Below are positions 45,544-55,665 of a stretch of DNA of 64,000 bases, piece by piece. The notes beneath the pieces were generated by a model. That model was not told where the DNA came from. It did no database searches and saw only the letters and a program-made list of their open reading frames with translations. How positions within the stretch are numbered: position 1 is the stretch's first letter; the number at the start of each line of letters is the position of its first letter. The translations under genes and the position numbers were made by a program. The stretch comes from Aquificota bacterium (lineage in GTDB: Bacteria; Thermosulfidibacterota; Thermosulfidibacteria; Thermosulfidibacterales; B14-G1). Where the stretch lies: the NCBI GenBank assembly GCA_015486015.1, contig WFSL01000024.1, positions 1 through 64,000 of the forward strand, given 5' to 3'.

Positions 45544-46461
45544 TCAGGCGTTATAGAGTTGAAGTGCTAATTGTTCAATGTAGGGGCGATTCTCAAGTTT
45601 TGAGATCCAAGTAGTGGGAATGGCATCAATTCCAAGATATGCCCCAGAAATAGCCCCTGCCATAGCTCCAAGTGTGTCACGGTCACCGCCGTTTAACACT
45701 GCGCACATCAGGCAGTTTTTGTAAGAATCAGTATGGCGTAAAAAGGCATAGACCGCAAAAGGCATGGATTCGTGGATAGCAACGGATCTACCTATCTTGC
45801 TGGCGGCATCCGATGGTTGACTCCCTTTTGTGATAAGCTCCTTAATGAAGGCCATCTTGTTGCGGATCTCTCCTGTTTCTGCTGCCTCTATGAGAGATTC
45901 TATGAAGCTGCTGAGAGGAAAAGGCTTAGAGGGGTCCAATTCTAAGGCCTTTGCTATGGCCAAGGCCTGAATTGCTGCCCCATCTCTCCCTATGGGATGG
46001 GCATGGGTTACCTCTGCAGATAGTTTGGCCTTTTCTAAGATATCGGGCTTGCCGTGGAAAAAGATGCCCACTGGCACAATGCGCATTGCTGAGCCGTTCC
46101 CAAAAGACCCCTGCCCGCCAAAGAGGCTTTGAGCCGCCTCTTTATATGTGATCTTTTGGCGGCTCACCAGATCAAAGACCTTTGGGGGGCCAGGGGCATA
46201 CCCCCGCCACGGTTCTCTAAGGAAGTTGCGCCGGAAGGTCTCTCCTATATGCTCCTGGTCTATGTCCCCTTTTTCCAAGAGAGATTCGGCAAGGCCAATT
46301 GCCATGGCGGTATCGTCCGTGTATCTAAGTACTGTAGTGCGATCTATTATCTGAACAAGGGCATCCTCCCGAGAATAGCGAAAGGCCAGCTCCCCGATGG
46401 CATCACCCAGGGCGCTCCCTATCATCGCTCCCACGAATTTGCTTTTGAGATCAAGGGGCAT
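45544..46461 (-). CDS. ADP-ribosylglycohydrolase family protein (DraG/ARH3-like)
   Basis: A 305-residue protein. GAMIGSALGDAIGE near the N terminus, RYTDDTAMAIG (metal-binding TDDT) and the C-terminal GGDRDTLGAMAGAISGAYLG are the dinuclear magnesium-site motifs of the family. Members remove ADP-ribose from proteins, nucleic acids or O-acetyl-ADP-ribose; DraG reactivates nitrogenase reductase. The substrate here is unknown and no DraT is seen. It is divergent from the porin and double-cubane genes, which makes a regulatory link worth testing but unproven. Base composition is slightly richer in AT than the upstream operon. Confidence 0.88.
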   Translation of the reverse strand: MPLDLKSKFVGAMIGSALGDAIGELAFRYSREDALVQIIDRTTVLRYTDDTAMAIGLAESLLEKGDIDQEHIGETFRRNFLREPWRGYAPGPPKVFDLVSRQKITYKEAAQSLFGGQGSFGNGSAMRIVPVGIFFHGKPDILEKAKLSAEVTHAHPIGRDGAAIQALAIAKALELDPSKPFPLSSFIESLIEAAETGEIRNKMAFIKELITKGSQPSDAASKIGRSVAIHESMPFAVYAFLRHTDSYKNCLMCAVLNGGDRDTLGAMAGAISGAYLGIDAIPTTWISKLENRPYIEQLALQLYNA

Positions 46462-46522
46462 GAATCTCGACCTCTGACAAATCTATGATCACTTCTAATT
46501 TAGAATTTATCATGGAGAACTA

Positions 46523-46534
46523 CCAAATTCAAGA
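46523..46534 (+). repeat. Short partial match to the dispersed repeat
   Basis: CCAAATTCAAGA is identical to the core of the two repeats at 50.26 and 52.21 kb. At 12 bp it may be a truncated copy or chance. It lies in the 214-bp gap between the divergent DraG-like and porin genes. Confidence 0.25.
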
Positions 46535-46598
46535 TCAGTGTAGTTTTTGGACCTTTTAAGATCCCAATATACAGGAGGATTATTATTTAATAAATCAA

Positions 46599-46626
46599 TT
46601 TGATCTATTGGTTTTTTATATATAAA
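46599..46626 (+). promoter_or_regulatory. Predicted promoter of the porin-DCCP operon
   Basis: TTTGAT (46599-46604), 16 bp, TATAAA (46621-46626) inside an AT-rich gap. The predicted start is near 46633, about 43 nt before the porin ATG, which has AGGGGG 7 nt upstream. Confidence 0.45.
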
Positions 46627-46675
46627 AGTTTGGCTGGACCGTTAGGTCAGCATGAAATCTTGAGGGGGTGTGGGT

Positions 46676-48139
46676 ATGGAACAAGTGAAATGCACTGTGC
46701 CCAAGGCCCTAACAAAAAGGATAGGCCTTGTCTTGGTAATGTTGGTGTCCTTGGTGCTGATATTGGTAACGCAGAATATTTCCTTTGGTGCCGAGGTGGT
46801 GTTTGTGAATGCACCCAGGGAGACCTGGCCTAAGGAGAAGCTTACCTTAGGGACTGAGGCAAGACTCAGATACGAAAGCCTCCATAATTTTAATTTCCTT
46901 GGGTATGGTAATTCTGTCCCCGTTGGTAAGAAAAGGGACGATATCCTTCTTGGAAGATTAAGGGTTGGTGTTAATTACAAGTTTAGTGAAAGGTTAAGGG
47001 CCTCTTTATGGGGTTATCAGGCAAATGCCTGGGATTTCTCGATTCCTCTAAAGACCTTTAAAAACCCCATCTTTGGTATGGAAGATCAGCCATTCGAGGA
47101 CAGATTAGAGCTATACAAGGCTTATATTGAGGTGAGGCTTTTGGATAAACTCAAGCTCAAAGTGGGCAGACAACGGCTGGATTATGGGGATTTTAGAACG
47201 TTTGGCCTCTGTAACTGGACCAATACGGGTCCTTATCTTTGGGATGCAGTAAAGCTTTCATATGATTTTAACAGGGGCGATTTCATAGATATCTTTTATG
47301 GGAGAACCAAGATAAATGATTCAAAGAAATTCAGCTTAAACCACAGGCATGCCTTCAATGGCGTAGGCATGTACAGCAGCTTCAAGCTTCCCTTTTTAAA
47401 GGCAACAATCGAGCCTTTCTTCTCATACAAGGGGGATAATACAGATAAATACAGTGGTGAAAAAGGTGGGGAAGGAAGGCTGAACGAATACTATATAGGC
47501 GCCAGAATCTGGGGCAGAGACTTTTATAACTTCGATTATGATTTCTGGTTCTCTAAGGAGTTTGGAAGGAGAGGTCCAGACGGTATAGATGCTTATGCCT
47601 ATCATTTGCTTGTGGGTTATAATTTCAAAAATCTGTGGGCTAAGCCAAGGCTCAGTTTGGAGTTTACCTACTCCTCAGGGGATGACGACCCTGACGATGG
47701 GGACCATAAGACCTTCGATGTAGGGTATGGTGTGTGGGGTTCTTGGTATGGAAACCAATGGAGTTTCTTCCGTTGGAGGAACTTTCAAGACCTCCAGACA
47801 AACCTTGAGCTGTGGCCTGTTAAAGGGGTACACGTGGTTTTGGGTCTGCATAACTATTGGTTGGCAAAGAGGGAGGACGCCTGGTACCTGAATCCGCATC
47901 TCTATAGAGACCCTAAAGGCGATTCGGGTAGAAAGGTGGGGGAGACCTTCGATGTTACTGTTAATGTGAATTTAAGCAAGGTATTTCCAAATGCTTCTCT
48001 GCTTAAAGGCCACTTTTTGAGTGCTACCTATGGGCACTTCTTCCCCAGCGAGGTTCCACAAAATATGGCGGATGAGGAAAGTGGAGCAAACTGGTTTTAC
48101 ATCCAATGGGGTTTTAAGCGTTCATGGAAGATTCTCTGA
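46676..48139 (+). CDS. Outer-membrane porin of the alginate-export (AlgE-like) family
   Basis: A 487-residue outer-membrane barrel. A long signal peptide (hydrophobic about 16-36, ending SFGA) precedes TLGTEARLRYESLHNFNFLG and many alternating aromatic beta-strands. Landmarks of the alginate_exp family are LGRLRVGVNYKFSERLRA, KAYIEVRLLDKLKLKVGRQRLDYGD and DAVKLSYDF. Family porins pass organic anions or oligosaccharides; alginate itself is not implied. It is 12 bp upstream of the double-cubane gene and probably cotranscribed, suggesting substrate entry for that enzyme. The last residue is leucine rather than the usual phenylalanine. Confidence 0.8.
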   Translation: MEQVKCTVPKALTKRIGLVLVMLVSLVLILVTQNISFGAEVVFVNAPRETWPKEKLTLGTEARLRYESLHNFNFLGYGNSVPVGKKRDDILLGRLRVGVNYKFSERLRASLWGYQANAWDFSIPLKTFKNPIFGMEDQPFEDRLELYKAYIEVRLLDKLKLKVGRQRLDYGDFRTFGLCNWTNTGPYLWDAVKLSYDFNRGDFIDIFYGRTKINDSKKFSLNHRHAFNGVGMYSSFKLPFLKATIEPFFSYKGDNTDKYSGEKGGEGRLNEYYIGARIWGRDFYNFDYDFWFSKEFGRRGPDGIDAYAYHLLVGYNFKNLWAKPRLSLEFTYSSGDDDPDDGDHKTFDVGYGVWGSWYGNQWSFFRWRNFQDLQTNLELWPVKGVHVVLGLHNYWLAKREDAWYLNPHLYRDPKGDSGRKVGETFDVTVNVNLSKVFPNASLLKGHFLSATYGHFFPSEVPQNMADEESGANWFYIQWGFKRSWKIL

Positions 48140-48151
48140 GGAGGTAGGATT

Positions 48152-49423
48152 ATGGAAGACTACCATGGAATGTGGGCAGAGCTTGGTCTTGATTTAGAAA
48201 GACACGATGAGTTCTTAAAGGGTCTCGGCCCTGCTTACCAGGAAATATACCTGAGTCAGAGATTCAGGCCCAAGGGCATGGAGTACTTTGATTTCATCAC
48301 CTCTGAGGTTCATGGATTGAGGATTAAAGAGCTATTGGAGCTTAAAGAAAAGGGATGCAGGATTGTGGGTACCTTTTGTGTCTATGTGCCCGAGGAGATC
48401 GTCATGGCTACAAGTGGCGTATGGGTTGGTGTCTGTGGAGGCTCTCAGTTCTCTATTCCCGATGCTGAAACGACGCTACCCAGAAACCTGTGCCCCCTTA
48501 TCAAATCTGCCTTTGGATTCATGAAGGCCAAAGCCTCTCCCTACTATAGGGTCCCTGATCTATTTGTGGGTGAGGCTACCTGTGACGGGAAGAAGAAGGT
48601 ATGGGAGATATTTGGAAACTATGTGCCCTTCTACACCATGGAGATTCCCAATGCCAAAAATTATATGGGCAAAAGGCTATGGTTGGAGGAGGTGATAAAG
48701 TTCAAGGAGAAGATGGAGATGGAGTCTGGTATTTCCATCACCCCTGAAAGGTTAGAGGAGGGGATCCTGGCAGTAAATAGGAAAAGGAGGGCTTTGGCCA
48801 GGCTCTTCGACCTCAGAAAGGCTGATCCTCCTCCCATTAGCGGGAAGGATGCCCTCTTGGTGTCGCAGATCGCCTATTATGATGATCCCGAAAGGTTTGC
48901 CACAAAAGTGAATGACCTTTGCGACGAGCTGGAGGAAAGGGTGCAAAAGGGGATGGGTGTTGTAGAAAAAGGGACACCCAGGATCATGATTTCGGGCTGC
49001 CCATTTGCCCTTCCTTTCTGGAAGGTTCACCACATTGTTGAAAGCAGTAAAGCGGTTGTTGTTTGTGAAGAGAGCTGTGTGGGTACCAGATATTTCACCA
49101 ACCTGGTAGACGAGGGACTTCCCACATTAGAGGATAAGTTAGAGGCCATAGCCGAGCGCTATCTCAAGATAAACTGTAGCTGCTTTACTCCTAATGATGA
49201 AAGGATCGAAGAAATTGCACAATATGTTAAAGATTTTAAGGTTGATGGGGTCATTCTCTTTACCCTCCAGTTTTGCCTTACCTATAGCATAGAGTGTATT
49301 AAGGTACAGGAGGCCTTAAAGAAGCTCAGTGTTCCAGTGTTAGAGATAGAGACAGACTATGGGGAGCAAGATGTAGGGCAGTTGCAAACAAGGATAGAGG
49401 CGTTTATAGAGCAAATATTATAG
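48152..49423 (+). CDS. Double-cubane cluster protein (DCCP), 2-hydroxyacyl-CoA dehydratase HgdB superfamily
   Basis: A 423-residue HgdB/BcrC-superfamily reductase. Its cysteine layout fits DCCP rather than a dehydratase subunit: C76 (GTFCVYVPEE), C95, C114 (LCPLIKSAFGF), C144 (GEATCDGKKK), then C283 (SGCPFALP), C305, C309, C342, C344 and C375. The GEATCDGKKK and CPLIKS motifs are marks of the group. In Carboxydothermus DCCP holds an Fe8S9 double cubane and reduces small molecules such as acetylene with ATP-driven electrons from its reductase; the natural substrate is unknown. No second dehydratase subunit or CoA-transferase lies nearby, which argues against a HgdAB-type dehydratase. The activator gene follows 13 bp later. 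Confidence 0.8.
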   Translation: MEDYHGMWAELGLDLERHDEFLKGLGPAYQEIYLSQRFRPKGMEYFDFITSEVHGLRIKELLELKEKGCRIVGTFCVYVPEEIVMATSGVWVGVCGGSQFSIPDAETTLPRNLCPLIKSAFGFMKAKASPYYRVPDLFVGEATCDGKKKVWEIFGNYVPFYTMEIPNAKNYMGKRLWLEEVIKFKEKMEMESGISITPERLEEGILAVNRKRRALARLFDLRKADPPPISGKDALLVSQIAYYDDPERFATKVNDLCDELEERVQKGMGVVEKGTPRIMISGCPFALPFWKVHHIVESSKAVVVCEESCVGTRYFTNLVDEGLPTLEDKLEAIAERYLKINCSCFTPNDERIEEIAQYVKDFKVDGVILFTLQFCLTYSIECIKVQEALKKLSVPVLEIETDYGEQDVGQLQTRIEAFIEQIL

Positions 49424-49436
49424 GGGTTTTGATGGC

Positions 49437-50180
49437 ATGTTTGGTGGTATTGATATCGGCTCTCGGACAGTGAAGATTGTGATTATGGAGAATGGACATG
49501 TAAGGGATTTTCAGGTGATAAATAGCGGTCATGACCCTTATGCTCAGGCCTTTAAGCTAATAAATACCTATAAACCAAAAAGATTAGTGGCTACAGGATA
49601 CGGACGTCATGCCCTGGAGTTGGATCTTGCTCATAAGGTGATTACGGAGATAAAGGCCCATGCCATAGGCGCAAGGCATCTTTATCCCAGCTGCAGGACA
49701 GTGATTGATGTGGGGGGCCAGGATAGCAAGGTCATGTCCTTGAGTGAGAACGGGAAAGTTATGGATTTTAAGATGAATGATCGTTGTGCCGCTGGGACTG
49801 GAAGGTTCCTTGAGATTATGGCCAAAACCCTGGGGTTTTCAATAGAAGAGTTTGGTGAAGAGGCGTTATCCGCTCAGGAGTCGGTAAAGATAAACAGCAT
49901 GTGTACCGTCTTCGCAGAATCGGAGGTGATCTCTCTCATATCAAGGCGTGTACCTTTGTTGAGCATTGCCTTGGGCGTGCATGAGGCCATTGCGGATCGC
50001 ATCTCCTCTTTGGCTCACAGGGTGGAGGTCTTGTCCGATGTAGTCTTTACCGGAGGGGTGGCCAGGAACCCTTGTGTCCACAGGTTGTTGGAAGAGAGGC
50101 TTAGGCAGAGGATATTAGTGCCTCAACATCCGGAGATAGTGGGGGCTTTGGGTGCAGCTATTGAGGCAGAGACCATTTAA
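49437..50180 (+). CDS. ATP-dependent activator/reductase of the double-cubane protein (HgdC/BcrA-BadF family)
   Basis: A 247-residue ASKHA ATPase. FGGIDIGSRTVKIVI and VIDVGGQDSKVMSL are phosphate-binding motifs; C117 (NDRCAAGTGRFLEIM) and C156 (NSMCTVFAESEVISL) are the two cysteines that bind one 4Fe-4S cluster across the dimer. It hydrolyses ATP and sends low-potential electrons to its partner, a mechanism like that of nitrogenase Fe protein but of different fold. Its place right after the DCCP gene makes it the DCCP reductase. The ATG at 49437 gives the standard N terminus. No terminator is evident in the 172-bp gap that follows. Confidence 0.88.
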   Translation: MFGGIDIGSRTVKIVIMENGHVRDFQVINSGHDPYAQAFKLINTYKPKRLVATGYGRHALELDLAHKVITEIKAHAIGARHLYPSCRTVIDVGGQDSKVMSLSENGKVMDFKMNDRCAAGTGRFLEIMAKTLGFSIEEFGEEALSAQESVKINSMCTVFAESEVISLISRRVPLLSIALGVHEAIADRISSLAHRVEVLSDVVFTGGVARNPCVHRLLEERLRQRILVPQHPEIVGALGAAIEAETI

Positions 50181-50263
50181 GGCTGATCTGAGCGCTATGC
50201 TCCGGCCTTTGGAGAGTGCCTCGCGGGGCCTAACATCGGATTCATGGGAGTGGCACTTTTGCA

Positions 50264-50333
50264 GGCATTATAGGACACATCCGCCTGTAGTGATCCTTAT
50301 GGCGAGGAATTGCCAAATTCAATGGTAGACCCC
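50264..50333 (+). repeat. Dispersed repeat, copy 1 (about 70 bp)
   Basis: Direct copy of the repeat at 52206-52274, aligned from GGCATT to GACCCC with one indel. The most conserved blocks are GTAGTGATC and ATTGCCAAATTCAA. It lies 19 bp from the stop of the minus-strand synthetase gene. It resembles the short intergenic repeats mobilised by REP-type transposases; no transposase is in the window. Confidence 0.7.
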
Positions 50334-50352: not shown

Positions 50353-52026
50353 TTACGTACCAGTCTCAAACAGATCTTTATATCTTTCGCGCAGTTCGTA
50401 TTTCTTTACTTTAGTCCCCACAGAAGTGGGTAACTGATCGAGAAAGACCACCTTTCTTGGTGTCTCAAAACCCGCCAGCTTTGCGCGGCAAAAATCAATC
50501 AGTTCTTGCTCAGTGGCGGTTTCTCCAGGTTTCAACACCACAGCGGCGACGACTGCTTCTCCCCAACGCCTATGTGGCACGCCAAACACAGCCGCTCTCT
50601 CTACCTTAGGGCACATCATCAACGCATTTTCGACACGAATGGTTGAGATGCTCTCGCCTCGAGATTTGATAATATCTTTGATCCGGTCTACCATGATTAT
50701 CAGGCCATTCTCGTCGTATTTACAGGCATCACCGCTGTGTAGCCACCCTCCACTAAAGGCTTTTTCTGTTGCTTCTTCGTTTTTATAATAGCCAGCCATC
50801 ATAACTGGGGACCGCATTACCTTTTCCCCCACTACACCTGGAGGGCAGGTATTCATGTCTTCATCGACAATTTTTGTGGCGTAAAATGGGTGCGTCATGC
50901 CAAGATAGTTCACTGTGGGCGAGTTTTTCTCATATTTATCGTAAAATTTATGATGCCATCCTCTGGTATCGTAGACACACTCAGTTTGTCCATCATAACT
51001 GAGAATCACAAGATCCCTACCAAAGATCTCTCTCAGCCTCTTATCAACGCTAGGGGGTAAAGGGCCCCATCCATACGAACACGTTCTGAGGAATCTCGTT
51101 TCGTACGTACCAGGATTCTTCTCGTATATCTCTGCTATTTTGGCGAAATCAGCAGGACTTCCAAATACGCTGGTGAGTTTCTCTCTTGTTATTGTGTCAA
51201 CTATGTGTTGGGGAGTTGGCAATCGAGTCATCACAGCCGTACCACCTGTTATATGGGCTGACAACATCATACCCTGAGCTGCAATGTGAAAAATAGGGTA
51301 ATAGATGCCTATTTTGTAATCTAACTCTGTCAAAACTCCTGCCCCCCGAGAGTGGGTCAAAGCATGACTAATGGCGCAAAAGTATAAGTATACATGGCTA
51401 ATCATAGCCCCCCTGGGCCACGCAGTGGTACCAGAAGTATACAATATCTCTGCAATATCATCGCCATGAATTCTTACATCTGGCTCATCCTTGGATTGTT
51501 TATCAATAAATTCATCAAAAGAGGAGCTCCCAGGAGCAACATCCCCTCCGATGGGAATAGTAACGCCAATATCGATTCCAGTGTTCTTAAGTGTTTCTTC
51601 GATCTTCTGAATAAATCGTGCTTCAACGACAGAAAAAGACGGTTCAGTTTGCTTGATGATGTAGCTTACAACATCGTCTGCAAGCATCACATTAATCGGT
51701 ACCAGCACCATTCCAGCCTTAAAGGTTCCAAGCTGAGAAATGTAATGTTCAGCACTGTTCAAAGCAAATGTGACGATTCTGTCTCCCCTTTTGAGTCCCC
51801 TTTCGAGCAAGGCGTTAGCAAACTGGTTTGCCTTTTCGTTGAGTTGTTTGTAAGTCAGCCTTTCGTTGTCCTTGAAAGCATATGCTCCTTGCCATGAGAC
51901 TAATGCTTCCTGATTGGGGCGGCTCCAAGTTATTCTTTCCGGGATGTCGCCTACTGCAATCCTATCCCATGGATGGTCGGCCCGTCTGTTGATCAGGCTT
52001 GTAACGTCAAATTTTATTTTTTTCAT
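50353..52026 (-). CDS. AMP-dependent acyl-CoA synthetase/ligase
   Basis: A 557-residue adenylate-forming enzyme from the ATG complementary to 52024-52026, which has AGGGGG at good spacing; a start at 52074 would add 16 unconserved residues. Core motifs: P-loop-like TSGTTAWPRGAMISH (glycine and lysine of the usual TTGxPKG are replaced by alanine and arginine), the YDGQTEC adenylate motif, SGDACKYDENG and the C-terminal SVGTKVKKYELRE lysine. It activates a carboxylic acid as acyl-AMP and acyl-CoA; the acid is unknown. An FNR-type site lies upstream. The gene is framed by the two repeats and is AT-richer than the envelope operon. Confidence 0.85.
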   Translation of the reverse strand: MKKIKFDVTSLINRRADHPWDRIAVGDIPERITWSRPNQEALVSWQGAYAFKDNERLTYKQLNEKANQFANALLERGLKRGDRIVTFALNSAEHYISQLGTFKAGMVLVPINVMLADDVVSYIIKQTEPSFSVVEARFIQKIEETLKNTGIDIGVTIPIGGDVAPGSSSFDEFIDKQSKDEPDVRIHGDDIAEILYTSGTTAWPRGAMISHVYLYFCAISHALTHSRGAGVLTELDYKIGIYYPIFHIAAQGMMLSAHITGGTAVMTRLPTPQHIVDTITREKLTSVFGSPADFAKIAEIYEKNPGTYETRFLRTCSYGWGPLPPSVDKRLREIFGRDLVILSYDGQTECVYDTRGWHHKFYDKYEKNSPTVNYLGMTHPFYATKIVDEDMNTCPPGVVGEKVMRSPVMMAGYYKNEEATEKAFSGGWLHSGDACKYDENGLIIMVDRIKDIIKSRGESISTIRVENALMMCPKVERAAVFGVPHRRWGEAVVAAVVLKPGETATEQELIDFCRAKLAGFETPRKVVFLDQLPTSVGTKVKKYELRERYKDLFETGT

Positions 52027-52148
52027 ATATACCCCCTTTGCACAATTTCCTCCAATCTCCTTTGTCCCCCTCAAAGGCCCTTCGCAAGTAGCACTTCACA
52101 GCTCTAAAACGGATTTCCGATGATCCTATCACCTTTGCCAAATAACTT

Positions 52149-52190: not shown

Positions 52191-52205
52191 GTCCCCATTC
52201 TTGTG

Positions 52206-52274
52206 GGCATTGTAGGGTATGTCCGCTTGTAGTGATCTTTGCGGCGAAAATTGCCAAATTCAAGACCTGACCCC
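52206..52274 (+). repeat. Dispersed repeat, copy 2 (about 70 bp)
   Basis: Second copy of the repeat at 50264-50333, same orientation, ending ACCTGACCCC only 5 bp from the stop codon of the next minus-strand ligase gene. The two copies therefore each follow a ligase gene. Confidence 0.7.
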
Positions 52275-52279
52275 CAGAT

Positions 52280-53734
52280 CTAAAGGAGTTCTGCCAGCCT
52301 TTTCTTGTCTATCTTTCCTACCGAATTCTTGGGGATCTCTTTTAGAACTATAAATTCTCTCGGGCGCTTGAAATCTGCCAACTTTTCTTTACAAATAGCC
52401 TTGAGTTTTTCAGTAATATCTTCACCACTTTCATCTGTAGGTGAGATGAATGCAACTGGTTGTTGGCCCAGTATCGTGTCTCTTCCCATTACACATACTT
52501 CTTTTAAAAGCCCAGTCTCCATGAGGACTTTTTCAATCTCGATTGGATATACATTTTCACCTTGAACAATTATCATGTCCCCCATCCTACCAAACAGGGT
52601 CAAGAAACCTTCTTTATCTAACTTCCCCAAGTCTCCCATCCTAAGATAATCACCAAAGAATGCACTCTTTGTGTCTGCATTAATGTAGCCCTTCATATAT
52701 CTGGGTCGTGTTACTACCTCTCCTACCTTACCCACTACGAATTTATTTTCATCTAAGATCTTCACTTCGACCCCTTTGACCGCCTTGCCAACCGTTTCTG
52801 AATGGGAGATGGCGTACTTATCATCTAAAATTGTTATTGTCCCACCTACTTCTGTTGATCCATAGAAATTGAATAATTTTATGTGAGGGAATCTTTTCTT
52901 GAGTGCCCTTATGACCTGAGGTCTCATAGGAGCACCTGCGTACCCGAATATTTTAGTTCCTAAAAGCTTGTACTTTTTTGATATGCCGGAAAGAATTAAA
53001 AGAGCAAAAATGGTTGGAGGGCCTAATAGCACATCTATACTATACTCTTCCAGAAGATGTGCCACATTTTGAGGCGTAGTATCGTTAGTTAATATGACGG
53101 TTTCACCCAGTATTATGGCGGGTATTAATTGATCCTCGCAACCTATCGCATGATATAAAGGTGCAGCTATCAGTTGCTTCATATCTGACTCGAATCCAAG
53201 ACCTTCGATCATTACATTTGCATAAAATAGGCTGTTTCTATTCGTATGTAAGACCCCTTTTGGAGTACCTGTTGTACCAGAAGTGAAGAGTATGAAAGCG
53301 TTTTCGCTCTTGGAAACTGGAGTTTCTCCGCTTATATCCAGCTCTTTTGCAATTTTTGCGTTTATCTTTGTAACTCTTTTTATACTACTTACTTTTCCCC
53401 CATAAATGGGATTCAATATAATCGCCTTCGATTGAGAAGCATCTATTATATATTTTATTTCTTCTGAAGTTAGGCGATTGTTTACAGGGACAGTTACCAT
53501 ACCCAATTTGTTTAGTGACAAAAGAGATATTACAAATTCTACCTGGTTATTTAAGAGTAGGGCTACGCTATCACCTTCGTTTAAACCGATCTCATTTTTT
53601 AGATAGTATGAGAATTTATCGACAAGTTTAGATATCTGGCCAAAGGTGAATCTGCTCTCATTGTCAACAACGAAAAGTTTGCTTTTATTTAACTGGCTAA
53701 TCTTATAAAACTGTTGATAGATTGACATATTCAT
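52280..53734 (-). CDS. AMP-dependent ligase loading the adjacent carrier protein (predicted)
   Basis: A 484-residue adenylate-forming enzyme. LFTSGTTGTPKGVLHTN is the canonical P-loop, FNFYGSTEVGGT the adenine site, YLRMGDLGKLDKEG the ribose-binding aspartate, and NSVGKIDKKRL the catalytic C-terminal lysine. It is shorter than the synthetase at 50-52 kb and only distantly similar. Its ATG overlaps the stop of the acyl carrier protein gene (ATGA at 53731-53734), so the likely acceptor is that carrier rather than CoA. The acid substrate is unknown. Clearly AT-rich compared with the core genes. It is the last gene of the four-gene cassette. Confidence 0.82.
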   Translation of the reverse strand: MNMSIYQQFYKISQLNKSKLFVVDNESRFTFGQISKLVDKFSYYLKNEIGLNEGDSVALLLNNQVEFVISLLSLNKLGMVTVPVNNRLTSEEIKYIIDASQSKAIILNPIYGGKVSSIKRVTKINAKIAKELDISGETPVSKSENAFILFTSGTTGTPKGVLHTNRNSLFYANVMIEGLGFESDMKQLIAAPLYHAIGCEDQLIPAIILGETVILTNDTTPQNVAHLLEEYSIDVLLGPPTIFALLILSGISKKYKLLGTKIFGYAGAPMRPQVIRALKKRFPHIKLFNFYGSTEVGGTITILDDKYAISHSETVGKAVKGVEVKILDENKFVVGKVGEVVTRPRYMKGYINADTKSAFFGDYLRMGDLGKLDKEGFLTLFGRMGDMIIVQGENVYPIEIEKVLMETGLLKEVCVMGRDTILGQQPVAFISPTDESGEDITEKLKAICKEKLADFKRPREFIVLKEIPKNSVGKIDKKRLAELL

Positions 53735-54000
53735 CGTGCATCCTCTTGTGTTTTTTTAGAAATGTATCTGCACAAAGAGCCGAAATTTTCAAATGCATCC
53801 ATGTCCATAAGTTCATCATCATCTATCTCTATATTAAATTTTTGTTCTAAAATGCTGATAAGCTCTGTTAGCGCTAATGAGTCAAGACCAAAATCGCTAC
53901 CGTATATTTCAGTTTCATCAGTAACCTTACTGTACTCTATATTTTGGACGTTATCTACTGCTGTAATTGCTTCATAACATAATTTTCTTATGTCTTTCAT
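53731..54000 (-). CDS. Acyl/peptidyl carrier protein
   Basis: An 89-residue four-helix carrier protein. DFGLDSLALTELI contains the serine (residue 41) that takes phosphopantetheine. It is very acidic, as usual. It is not the fatty-acid ACP by context: it lies between a nitroreductase (9 bp upstream, with TAGGAGGATATC as ribosome site) and an AMP ligase (4-bp overlap). It probably carries a dedicated acyl or aminoacyl group while neighbouring enzymes act on it. Confidence 0.85.
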   Translation of the reverse strand: MKDIRKLCYEAITAVDNVQNIEYSKVTDETEIYGSDFGLDSLALTELISILEQKFNIEIDDDELMDMDAFENFGSLCRYISKKTQEDAR

Positions 54001-54009
54001 GATATCCTC

Positions 54010-54594
54010 CTATTCTAAAAACCAGATGTGAAAAGGTTTTCTTTCAAGAGTCTTGATCCTCTGATCCGGTATTCCAATTGTAATAAGTGCCAAGAGTTCT
54101 CCTTTATCCTTATCAATTCCTAATATCTCCTGAGCTTCAGTTCGACTTTTTTCATCTATTCCTATCCAACATGTTCCTAATCCTTTATCATAGGCAAGCA
54201 ACAATATATTTTGGATCACTGCGTAAACAGAGGCCCTTTGGAATTCTATATCTGTATCTCCTATTCTATTGCTTCTCAGCGCACCAATAAGGTAGGGTGC
54301 ATTGCCAAAATTCTTCAAGAATTTTTTTATAATAAGTTGAGAAAGATCTTTCTTTTGGGAGATTTTTTCTATTGCCGTTTTCGCTTTCTCATAGAGAAAA
54401 TTTCCTATGTGGTCCTTTCTGCTTAGTACATATTCTCTGGAAAGGATTACAAAATTCCAGGGTTGAGAATTGAATGGGGAAGGTGCCCAGACCGCTGTAT
54501 TTATGATTTCTCTGATAATCTCCTCGCTTATCTTCTTATCTTTATACTTTCTAATAGATCTTCTATTTGTTATGATGTCGGAGAGCGGCTTCAT
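54010..54594 (-). CDS. Nitroreductase-family FMN oxidoreductase
   Basis: A 194-residue nitroreductase-fold protein. NRRSIRKYKDKKIS and WAPSPFNSQPWNFVI are the N-terminal FMN phosphate-binding parts, and YAVIQNILLLAYDKGLGTCW the helix that closes the flavin site. Family members reduce nitro or quinone groups, but some oxidise carrier- or peptide-bound substrates (for example azoline to azole). Its ATG is immediately next to the stop of the U32-like gene. Here a role in oxidising or reducing an ACP-bound group is inferred from the neighbours. Confidence 0.85.
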   Translation of the reverse strand: MKPLSDIITNRRSIRKYKDKKISEEIIREIINTAVWAPSPFNSQPWNFVILSREYVLSRKDHIGNFLYEKAKTAIEKISQKKDLSQLIIKKFLKNFGNAPYLIGALRSNRIGDTDIEFQRASVYAVIQNILLLAYDKGLGTCWIGIDEKSRTEAQEILGIDKDKGELLALITIGIPDQRIKTLERKPFHIWFLE

Positions 54595-55665
54595 CTAAAC
54601 CACCTTTACAGCTTTTGTTTTTTTGAGAAAATGGATTCTCTCTTCGTAAAAACGCTTGCAATAATCGCAGCTTCCGCCTACTGTGTAACAATCATTGTCA
54701 CAATCGGGTCTATACTCATAAAAATAATTTAAAAATCCGTCCAGATCTTTGTTCGATATAAATCTTCTGTTGTCTCTCAAATTTTCAGGTTTCTGTAAAA
54801 ACATGGGGAAAAGGTGCATCAAATTTCCATCATAGTCGAGGGATGTATAAGCATTCATGAAGAATTTAATTAGTTCTGGATGGCTTTCTCTACGAACAAT
54901 TTTGAAGTATTCAATGCCGAAATTGTCGTGATAAAATGGTACGTCTTCTGGTCTGATGAATCTTGTTTTCAAGATATTTACTGGAAACTCACTTAGAAGC
55001 TCTTTGTAACAGAATTTATAATAGTAATTGTGCGTCTTATCTTGGGCAAAATCTGGATTGGAACGGTGTAGATAGTGCTGAGGTAAAAAGGGACAGTCAA
55101 ATCTACAAATTTCATTACAGAGTATTTCATACTCTAAATCGGGGAATTTTCTTAGCTTTTCTAAAAAGTTGAAGTCTCTTCCTTTAAAAAGTGAAGGAAT
55201 AATTCTATGGACCCCCATATCTTTAAAACGTTTTATCTTTTGGAGGCTGTCTGCTTGGCATATAGCACTAACTGAAATTTCTAAATTGCTACTTTGAGCA
55301 GCCAATTCTATGAGGGGAATGGCGGTAAGGATAATACCTTTTACTCCTGTATCTTCTATCCTTTTTAGGAAATCGATGATCTTATTCCTATATTTTTCTA
55401 TAATATCAGGTGTTGCCCTCAAAGTATTTAAATTAAGATGAACATCTATGTTGTATTTTTTGCCCTTTTTCACGAACTCCACCAGATCCTTCCAGGAAGC
55501 ATGCTCTCTCCCCTTACCAAAACTAATAGAAGAGAAAGAAAATATATCATCTTCGACTGAACCATAAAATTCTTTAACTATGCCTTTCCCCTTCTGGTTA
55601 CAACGATCAGCATATTCTATAAGCTCGATATTTTTAAAGCTAGTGCCTACGCAAAATTTAATCAT
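54595..55665 (-). CDS. Peptidase U32/UbiU-like iron-sulfur protein
   Basis: A 356-residue protein that I assign to the U32 group on its TIM-barrel-like pattern and the signature ILCNEICRFDCPF (C183, C187, C191) with C219 following, comparable to the four-cysteine cluster site of UbiU and UbiV. A second group at the C terminus, C322-x3-C326-x6-C333-x2-C336, could hold another cluster. U32 proteins include collagenase-like peptidases and the oxygen-independent ubiquinone hydroxylases UbiU/UbiV and the RNA hydroxylase RlhA. A hydroxylase-like role without oxygen is attractive in an anaerobe but is inference. Strong GGAGGGAG ribosome site. It heads the cassette; the U32 assignment is moderately sure. 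Confidence 0.65.
   Translation of the reverse strand: MIKFCVGTSFKNIELIEYADRCNQKGKGIVKEFYGSVEDDIFSFSSISFGKGREHASWKDLVEFVKKGKKYNIDVHLNLNTLRATPDIIEKYRNKIIDFLKRIEDTGVKGIILTAIPLIELAAQSSNLEISVSAICQADSLQKIKRFKDMGVHRIIPSLFKGRDFNFLEKLRKFPDLEYEILCNEICRFDCPFLPQHYLHRSNPDFAQDKTHNYYYKFCYKELLSEFPVNILKTRFIRPEDVPFYHDNFGIEYFKIVRRESHPELIKFFMNAYTSLDYDGNLMHLFPMFLQKPENLRDNRRFISNKDLDGFLNYFYEYRPDCDNDCYTVGGSCDYCKRFYEERIHFLKKTKAVKVV

Follow-up and report, generated by a model that had tools for sequence, protein, structure and literature searches.

In the window, by which I mean the whole 64,000-nucleotide stretch of an Aquificota bacterium analysed here, four genes are packed tightly on the minus strand and are followed downstream by a second ligase gene and two copies of a repeat:

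54595..55665, minus strand: U32-like protein of 356 amino acids, the first gene of the operon
54010..54594, minus strand: nitroreductase-family flavoprotein of 194 amino acids, 0 bp from the U32 gene
53731..54000, minus strand: acyl carrier protein of 89 amino acids, with the DSL serine at position 41 and AGGAGG ahead of the gene
52280..53734, minus strand: AMP-forming acid ligase of 484 amino acids, with a 4-bp overlap with the carrier gene
52196..52274, minus strand: repeat, 6 bp past the ligase stop, with a core of about 27 bp, of which the genome has about 20 copies
50353..52074, minus strand: second AMP ligase of 573 amino acids, GC 0.45, 205 bp downstream of the cassette
50254..50333, minus strand: the repeat again, more diverged, past the end of the second ligase

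The ORF map confirms the close packing that had been described for this locus, with junctions of 0 bp, 9 bp and a 4-bp overlap (ATGA) in the order U32, nitroreductase, carrier and ligase. As far as the sequence can be read, genes that abut and overlap in this way suggest a single transcript for all four; promoter and terminator scans returned fewer sites than in shuffled sequence. The four gene classes given in the original prediction each find a Pfam match: Peptidase_U32 for the U32-like protein (29 bits against a cut-off of 22.4, residues 95-157 only), Nitroreductase for the flavoprotein (108 bits), PP-binding for the carrier (38 bits), and AMP-binding with its C-terminal domain for the ligase (224 and 50 bits, respectively). 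None of the four cassette proteins has, among the NCBIfam matches listed, one that reaches the cut-off. A defence system was also considered, but PADLOC yields one weak match on the carrier, probably due to chance.

The genes had been called AT-rich, and rightly so: the GC content is 0.347 for the U32-like gene, 0.362 for the nitroreductase, 0.330 for the carrier and 0.381 for the ligase, versus 0.533 +/- 0.016 across the window's 37 remaining long ORFs. A chance origin of such a compact and compositionally foreign block is unlikely, and because its genes are so strongly AT-rich, the operon has probably been acquired horizontally. The repeat that follows the cassette shares its core with the ends of a Y1 (IS200-like) transposase element; elsewhere in the genome this core is found in pairs around a Y1 transposase gene, or in copies about 110-170 bp apart. 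The repeats after both ligases were considered as possible gene-cassette recombination sites, but their pattern agrees better with a repeat associated with a Y1 transposase; this repeat may be the mark of a past rearrangement. The second ligase, which among nine genomes of the host's phylum has a match at 1e-80 in the host only, is possibly a mere neighbour of the cassette. Further downstream, the genes at 45544-50180 are of intermediate GC content (0.45-0.51), including a double-cubane reductase and its activator, and were perhaps likewise acquired.

The order of the four genes was expected to recur in other genomes if it reflects a conserved pathway. No second copy is found in roughly 640 distinct sampled genomes (a broad bacterial set of 386, 249 from the phylum of the genome G059 discussed below, and small phyla), including the eight others of the host's small phylum, and a repeat draw of the sample gave a nearly identical genome set. 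Lack of conservation was among the outcomes that the original prediction had named as refuting it. Since these genomes are a sample, the result speaks for rarity rather than absence, and with no second copy found, co-selection of the four genes is at most a conjecture. In the nine genomes of the host's phylum, a strong U32 match and a ligase match at 1e-60 are each present in the host only. At E 0.001, a U32 match is observed in 28 of the 386 genomes of the broad sample, those besides the host at 23-34% identity, and the further 249 genomes add two more; the four-gene order is absent from all 24 U32 neighbourhoods that I read. The best relatives of the nitroreductase are 36-42% identical and come mostly from the host's phylum, and none of them adjoins ligase, carrier or U32 genes. 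Among plasmids there is one distant U32 match, a Fusobacterium record that represents an ordinary U32 protein with no cassette genes nearby, and plasmid searches with two cellular U32 homologs gave no matches. The cassette is real, foreign and rare.

A ligase and carrier pair is expected to load an acid. The motifs of the ligase are intact (TSGTTGTPKG, YGSTE, GDL, GRMGDMI and the NSVGKI lysine), and its top PDB sequence matches are, in order, MenE, a domain of linear gramicidin synthase and FadD enzymes, the best being 5x8f (3e-51). It resembles the MenE and acyl-CoA ligases in its best match and in all core motifs, but differs from them in that it remains under every NCBIfam cut-off among the matches listed. 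Amino-acid adenylation domains have an FDxS core, with the Asp serving the amino group; at this position the window ligase reads PLYHAIGCED, and FDxS is not present, which makes an amino-acid substrate less likely. Loading of an amino acid is therefore not supported, although the PDB matches do include a domain from a peptide synthetase. Of the acid or amino acid that had been proposed as the substrate, the acid remains the likelier, with an acyl- or aryl-type ligase adjoining a carrier, and the amino acid has become unlikely. The carrier itself, with its PP-binding match, its GLDSL serine at Ser41 and a helical predicted model, is a stand-alone acyl carrier protein, and its adjacent position suggests that the window ligase loads the carrier instead of CoA. 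D-alanylation, named in the original prediction as an example of a known pathway to which ligase and carrier might belong, is not indicated, as there is no DltA-type model among the best 25 of 109 NCBIfam matches and no DltB or DltD in the flanks.

The AlphaFold model of the U32-like protein (pLDDT 74, pTM 0.76) has its best solved match in the U32 peptidase Mk0906 (5d88, Z 18.3 over 221 residues, 3.8 A rmsd), ahead of the next fold, CutC, with Z 14.6; together with the Pfam match above its cut-off, this places the protein in the U32 superfamily. The structure prediction that had been advised for a 4Fe-4S site at C183/C187/C191/C219 does yield the U32 fold, but the loop 187-221, which contains three of the cysteines, is modelled with low confidence (pLDDT under 50). 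Among the homologs, N80, C191, C219, P239, G250, K255, R259, C326, C333 and C336 are invariant in 26 of 26, and C187 and C322 are kept in 24. A U32 fold with an Fe-S-like cysteine pattern is borne out by these data, and three of the four proposed ligands (C187, C191 and C219) are conserved, while C183 is not. C187/C191/C219 and K255/R259 have aligned counterparts in UbiU, RlhA and TrhP of E. coli, whereas the C-terminal cluster C322/C326/C333/C336 has none there.

UbiU binds its Fe-S cluster with a four-cysteine motif, CX6CX16CX38C (PMC6747719), from which the window protein deviates by its CX3C spacing and the further cluster C322/C326/C333/C336. In a tree with the E. coli proteins, UbiU, UbiV, RlhA and TrhP lie on one side of a 99/95 branch and the window protein lies outside, so that tree and cysteine spacing rule out the UbiU-like identity initially assigned. 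In the same tree, the window protein clusters with G168a and the proteins of T4-like phages (97/95), a grouping not recovered in the tree without the E. coli proteins; the window branch is long, and identity to the full-length homologs is no more than 25-30%. Judged by sequence, it belongs to a separate U32 clade that combines three of the UbiU cysteine positions with a C-terminal four-cysteine cluster.

This clade extends to phages. The window protein matches phrog_5757, annotated as peptidase, over its full length (2.9e-27, residues 3-344), and this profile match and the presence of both cysteine groups make it a member of the phrog_5757 clade. In all, 243 phage records match, mostly T4-like, and the best of them shows about 27% over 96%. 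I read five T4-like phages, and in these the U32-like gene lies near a gene resembling dCMP hydroxymethylase or thymidylate synthase, and usually near sugar-nucleotide or isomerase genes as well, with some records annotated as UDP-arabinose biosynthesis. In the loci L004-L007 and L009 of T4-like phages, the U32-like 'peptidase' is found within the DNA-arabinosylation operon. RB69, which is of this T4-like group, has arabinosylated cytosine (PMC6024577), the titles of later papers name arabinosyl-hydroxy-cytosine and glycosylated 5-hydroxycytosine, and for Thanatos the authors left the hydroxyl on cytosine unexplained (PMC12838424). I infer that the phage U32-like protein is a candidate for the source of this hydroxyl. 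The cyanophage versions (L008 5728-7494, L027 4515-6191) are extended at the C-terminus by about 200 residues, which resemble a methyltransferase.

The bacterial neighbourhoods were surveyed descriptively, as raw occurrences uncorrected for chance. In G135 (L139 8085-10445) and G271 (L141 7618-10122), a DAHP synthase-chorismate mutase fusion lies directly upstream of U32; the product of chorismate mutase is prephenate. UbiD, UbiA and a UbiE-like methyltransferase surround the U32 gene, which has an internal stop codon, in G362 (L144 2944-8078), and U32, YceI and a type III polyketide synthase form one gene run in G164 (L145 8037-11167) and G075 (L146 839-3717). Three genomes of one small phylum (G194, G049 and G326) have U32, a NAD_binding_4 protein, a 362-residue protein and YceI in common; the NAD_binding_4 protein of G049 contains an SCP2 domain, which UbiT likewise carries (PMC6747719). 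Radical SAM genes occur as well: a radical SAM-SPASM gene adjoins the U32 copies of G565 and G590 in the two loci scanned of four, and a B12-type radical SAM gene lies beside U32 in G321. The four U32 loci of G565 and G590 (L157-L160) resemble one another in gene order; the two that were scanned have a second radical SAM gene further on, and near one of them lies a gene for a type IV leader peptidase. No aromatic neighbour is found among the neighbours scanned in G233, G093 and G145. The chorismate-mutase, quinone and polyketide neighbours favour a predicted O2-independent hydroxylation chemistry.

Compared with known systems, the window protein shares with UbiU and UbiV, the O2-independent ubiquinone hydroxylases of E. 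coli, the U32 TIM-barrel fold, cysteines aligned at C187/C191/C219, the lysine and arginine of the KIEGR signature, and one clade homolog situated among UbiD/UbiA/UbiE genes; it differs by its position outside the E. coli clade (99/95), its CX3C spacing, its C-terminal four-cysteine cluster, and an operon without an adjoining UbiV or UbiT partner. With the RNA hydroxylases RlhA and TrhP it has the core motif in common, and of the E. coli proteins RlhA is matched best, though weakly, by BLAST (26% over 118 residues, 4e-5), but these lack the C-terminal cluster and the window operon lacks an RNA link. The phrog_5757 'peptidase' is nearest by tree path, full-length at 26-27% over 96% and with both cysteine groups, yet in the phages it is accompanied by sugar-nucleotide and dCMP hydroxymethylase-like genes, and in the window by ligase, carrier and nitroreductase. 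A likeness in gene content is provided by G059, where an AMP ligase, an epimerase, a glycosyltransferase, U32, a carrier protein and further genes form what looks like a glycosylated natural product cluster: the carrier directly follows U32, and the ligase is three genes upstream. In contrast to the window, this cluster includes glycosyltransferases, an aminotransferase, a carbamoyltransferase, a UvrA-like protein and a transporter, and its annotated genes are without a nitroreductase; the cluster as a whole lies at L143 5562-17777.

From these observations I tentatively predict, at a little under an even chance, that the cassette hydroxylates a carrier-bound acid, with the U32 protein acting without O2. 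On the evidence of families and motifs, the substrate that the ligase would adenylate is a carboxylic acid, probably of the aryl or acyl kind and lacking an alpha-amino group, and the acid would then be loaded as a thioester on the stand-alone carrier. Once tethered, the acid or a product of it may be hydroxylated by the U32-fold protein independently of O2; prephenate is perhaps the oxygen donor, which fits the chorismate-mutase neighbours of the relatives. Prephenate is the oxygen source in anaerobic ubiquinone synthesis and has been suggested for the RNA-hydroxylating U32 enzymes (PMC11574389). The least certain part is the nitroreductase-fold flavoenzyme, which might add or remove two electrons on the same substrate or, alternatively, might supply electrons to the Fe-S protein. 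The components and the logic of the original prediction remain, whereas a pathway conserved in the sampled genomes and the UbiU identity are not supported. A broader proposal, possible but rather doubtful, is that the clade comprises unrecognised O2-independent hydroxylases with two Fe-S sites, in bacteria and phages, that act on quinones, polyketides and cytosine, and here on a carrier-tethered acid.

Alternatively, the carrier-bound acid could be oxidised, for instance desaturated, by the nitroreductase, with the U32 protein performing some other Fe-S redox step. The position of the clade apart from UbiU, RlhA and TrhP, its extra cysteine cluster, and the radical SAM enzymes rather than quinone genes beside some relatives would agree with this. 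However, hydroxylation is what the UbiD/UbiA/UbiE, chorismate-mutase and type III polyketide synthase neighbours fit, and the phages of the clade modify cytosine, with a hydroxyl reported on that of Thanatos (PMC12838424), and I regard this explanation as unlikely, although it deserves to be kept in mind.

Less probable still is that, as with the phage relatives, the target of the U32 protein is a nucleotide or nucleic acid, and that its ligase and carrier neighbours are an accident of transfer. The full-length phrog_5757 match, the many phage records and the grouping with the T4-like phage clade and G168a speak for this, but that grouping, on a long branch, is lost without the E. coli proteins, no phage modification genes are near the cassette, and the junctions point to one transcript. 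It is about equally improbable that a larger biosynthetic cluster was acquired and that the cassette is what is left of it, giving no product alone, with the missing steps lost or supplied by the second ligase and the host. An AT-rich island in one of nine genomes of the phylum, with a repeat element at its end and no adjoining gene for chain extension, release or export, would agree with such a remnant, yet all four frames are open, their motifs are intact, and their start and stop junctions are tight.

Routes that add oxygen to carbon without O2 are few. A clade connecting U32 chemistry with tethered acids, quinone genes, type III polyketide synthases and the modification of phage DNA would broaden the range of substrates known for it, and the cassette would be a small, expressible four-protein system for testing such chemistry. 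The clade is also a candidate for the source of the cytosine hydroxyl in Thanatos-type phages, which the authors left unexplained (PMC12838424).
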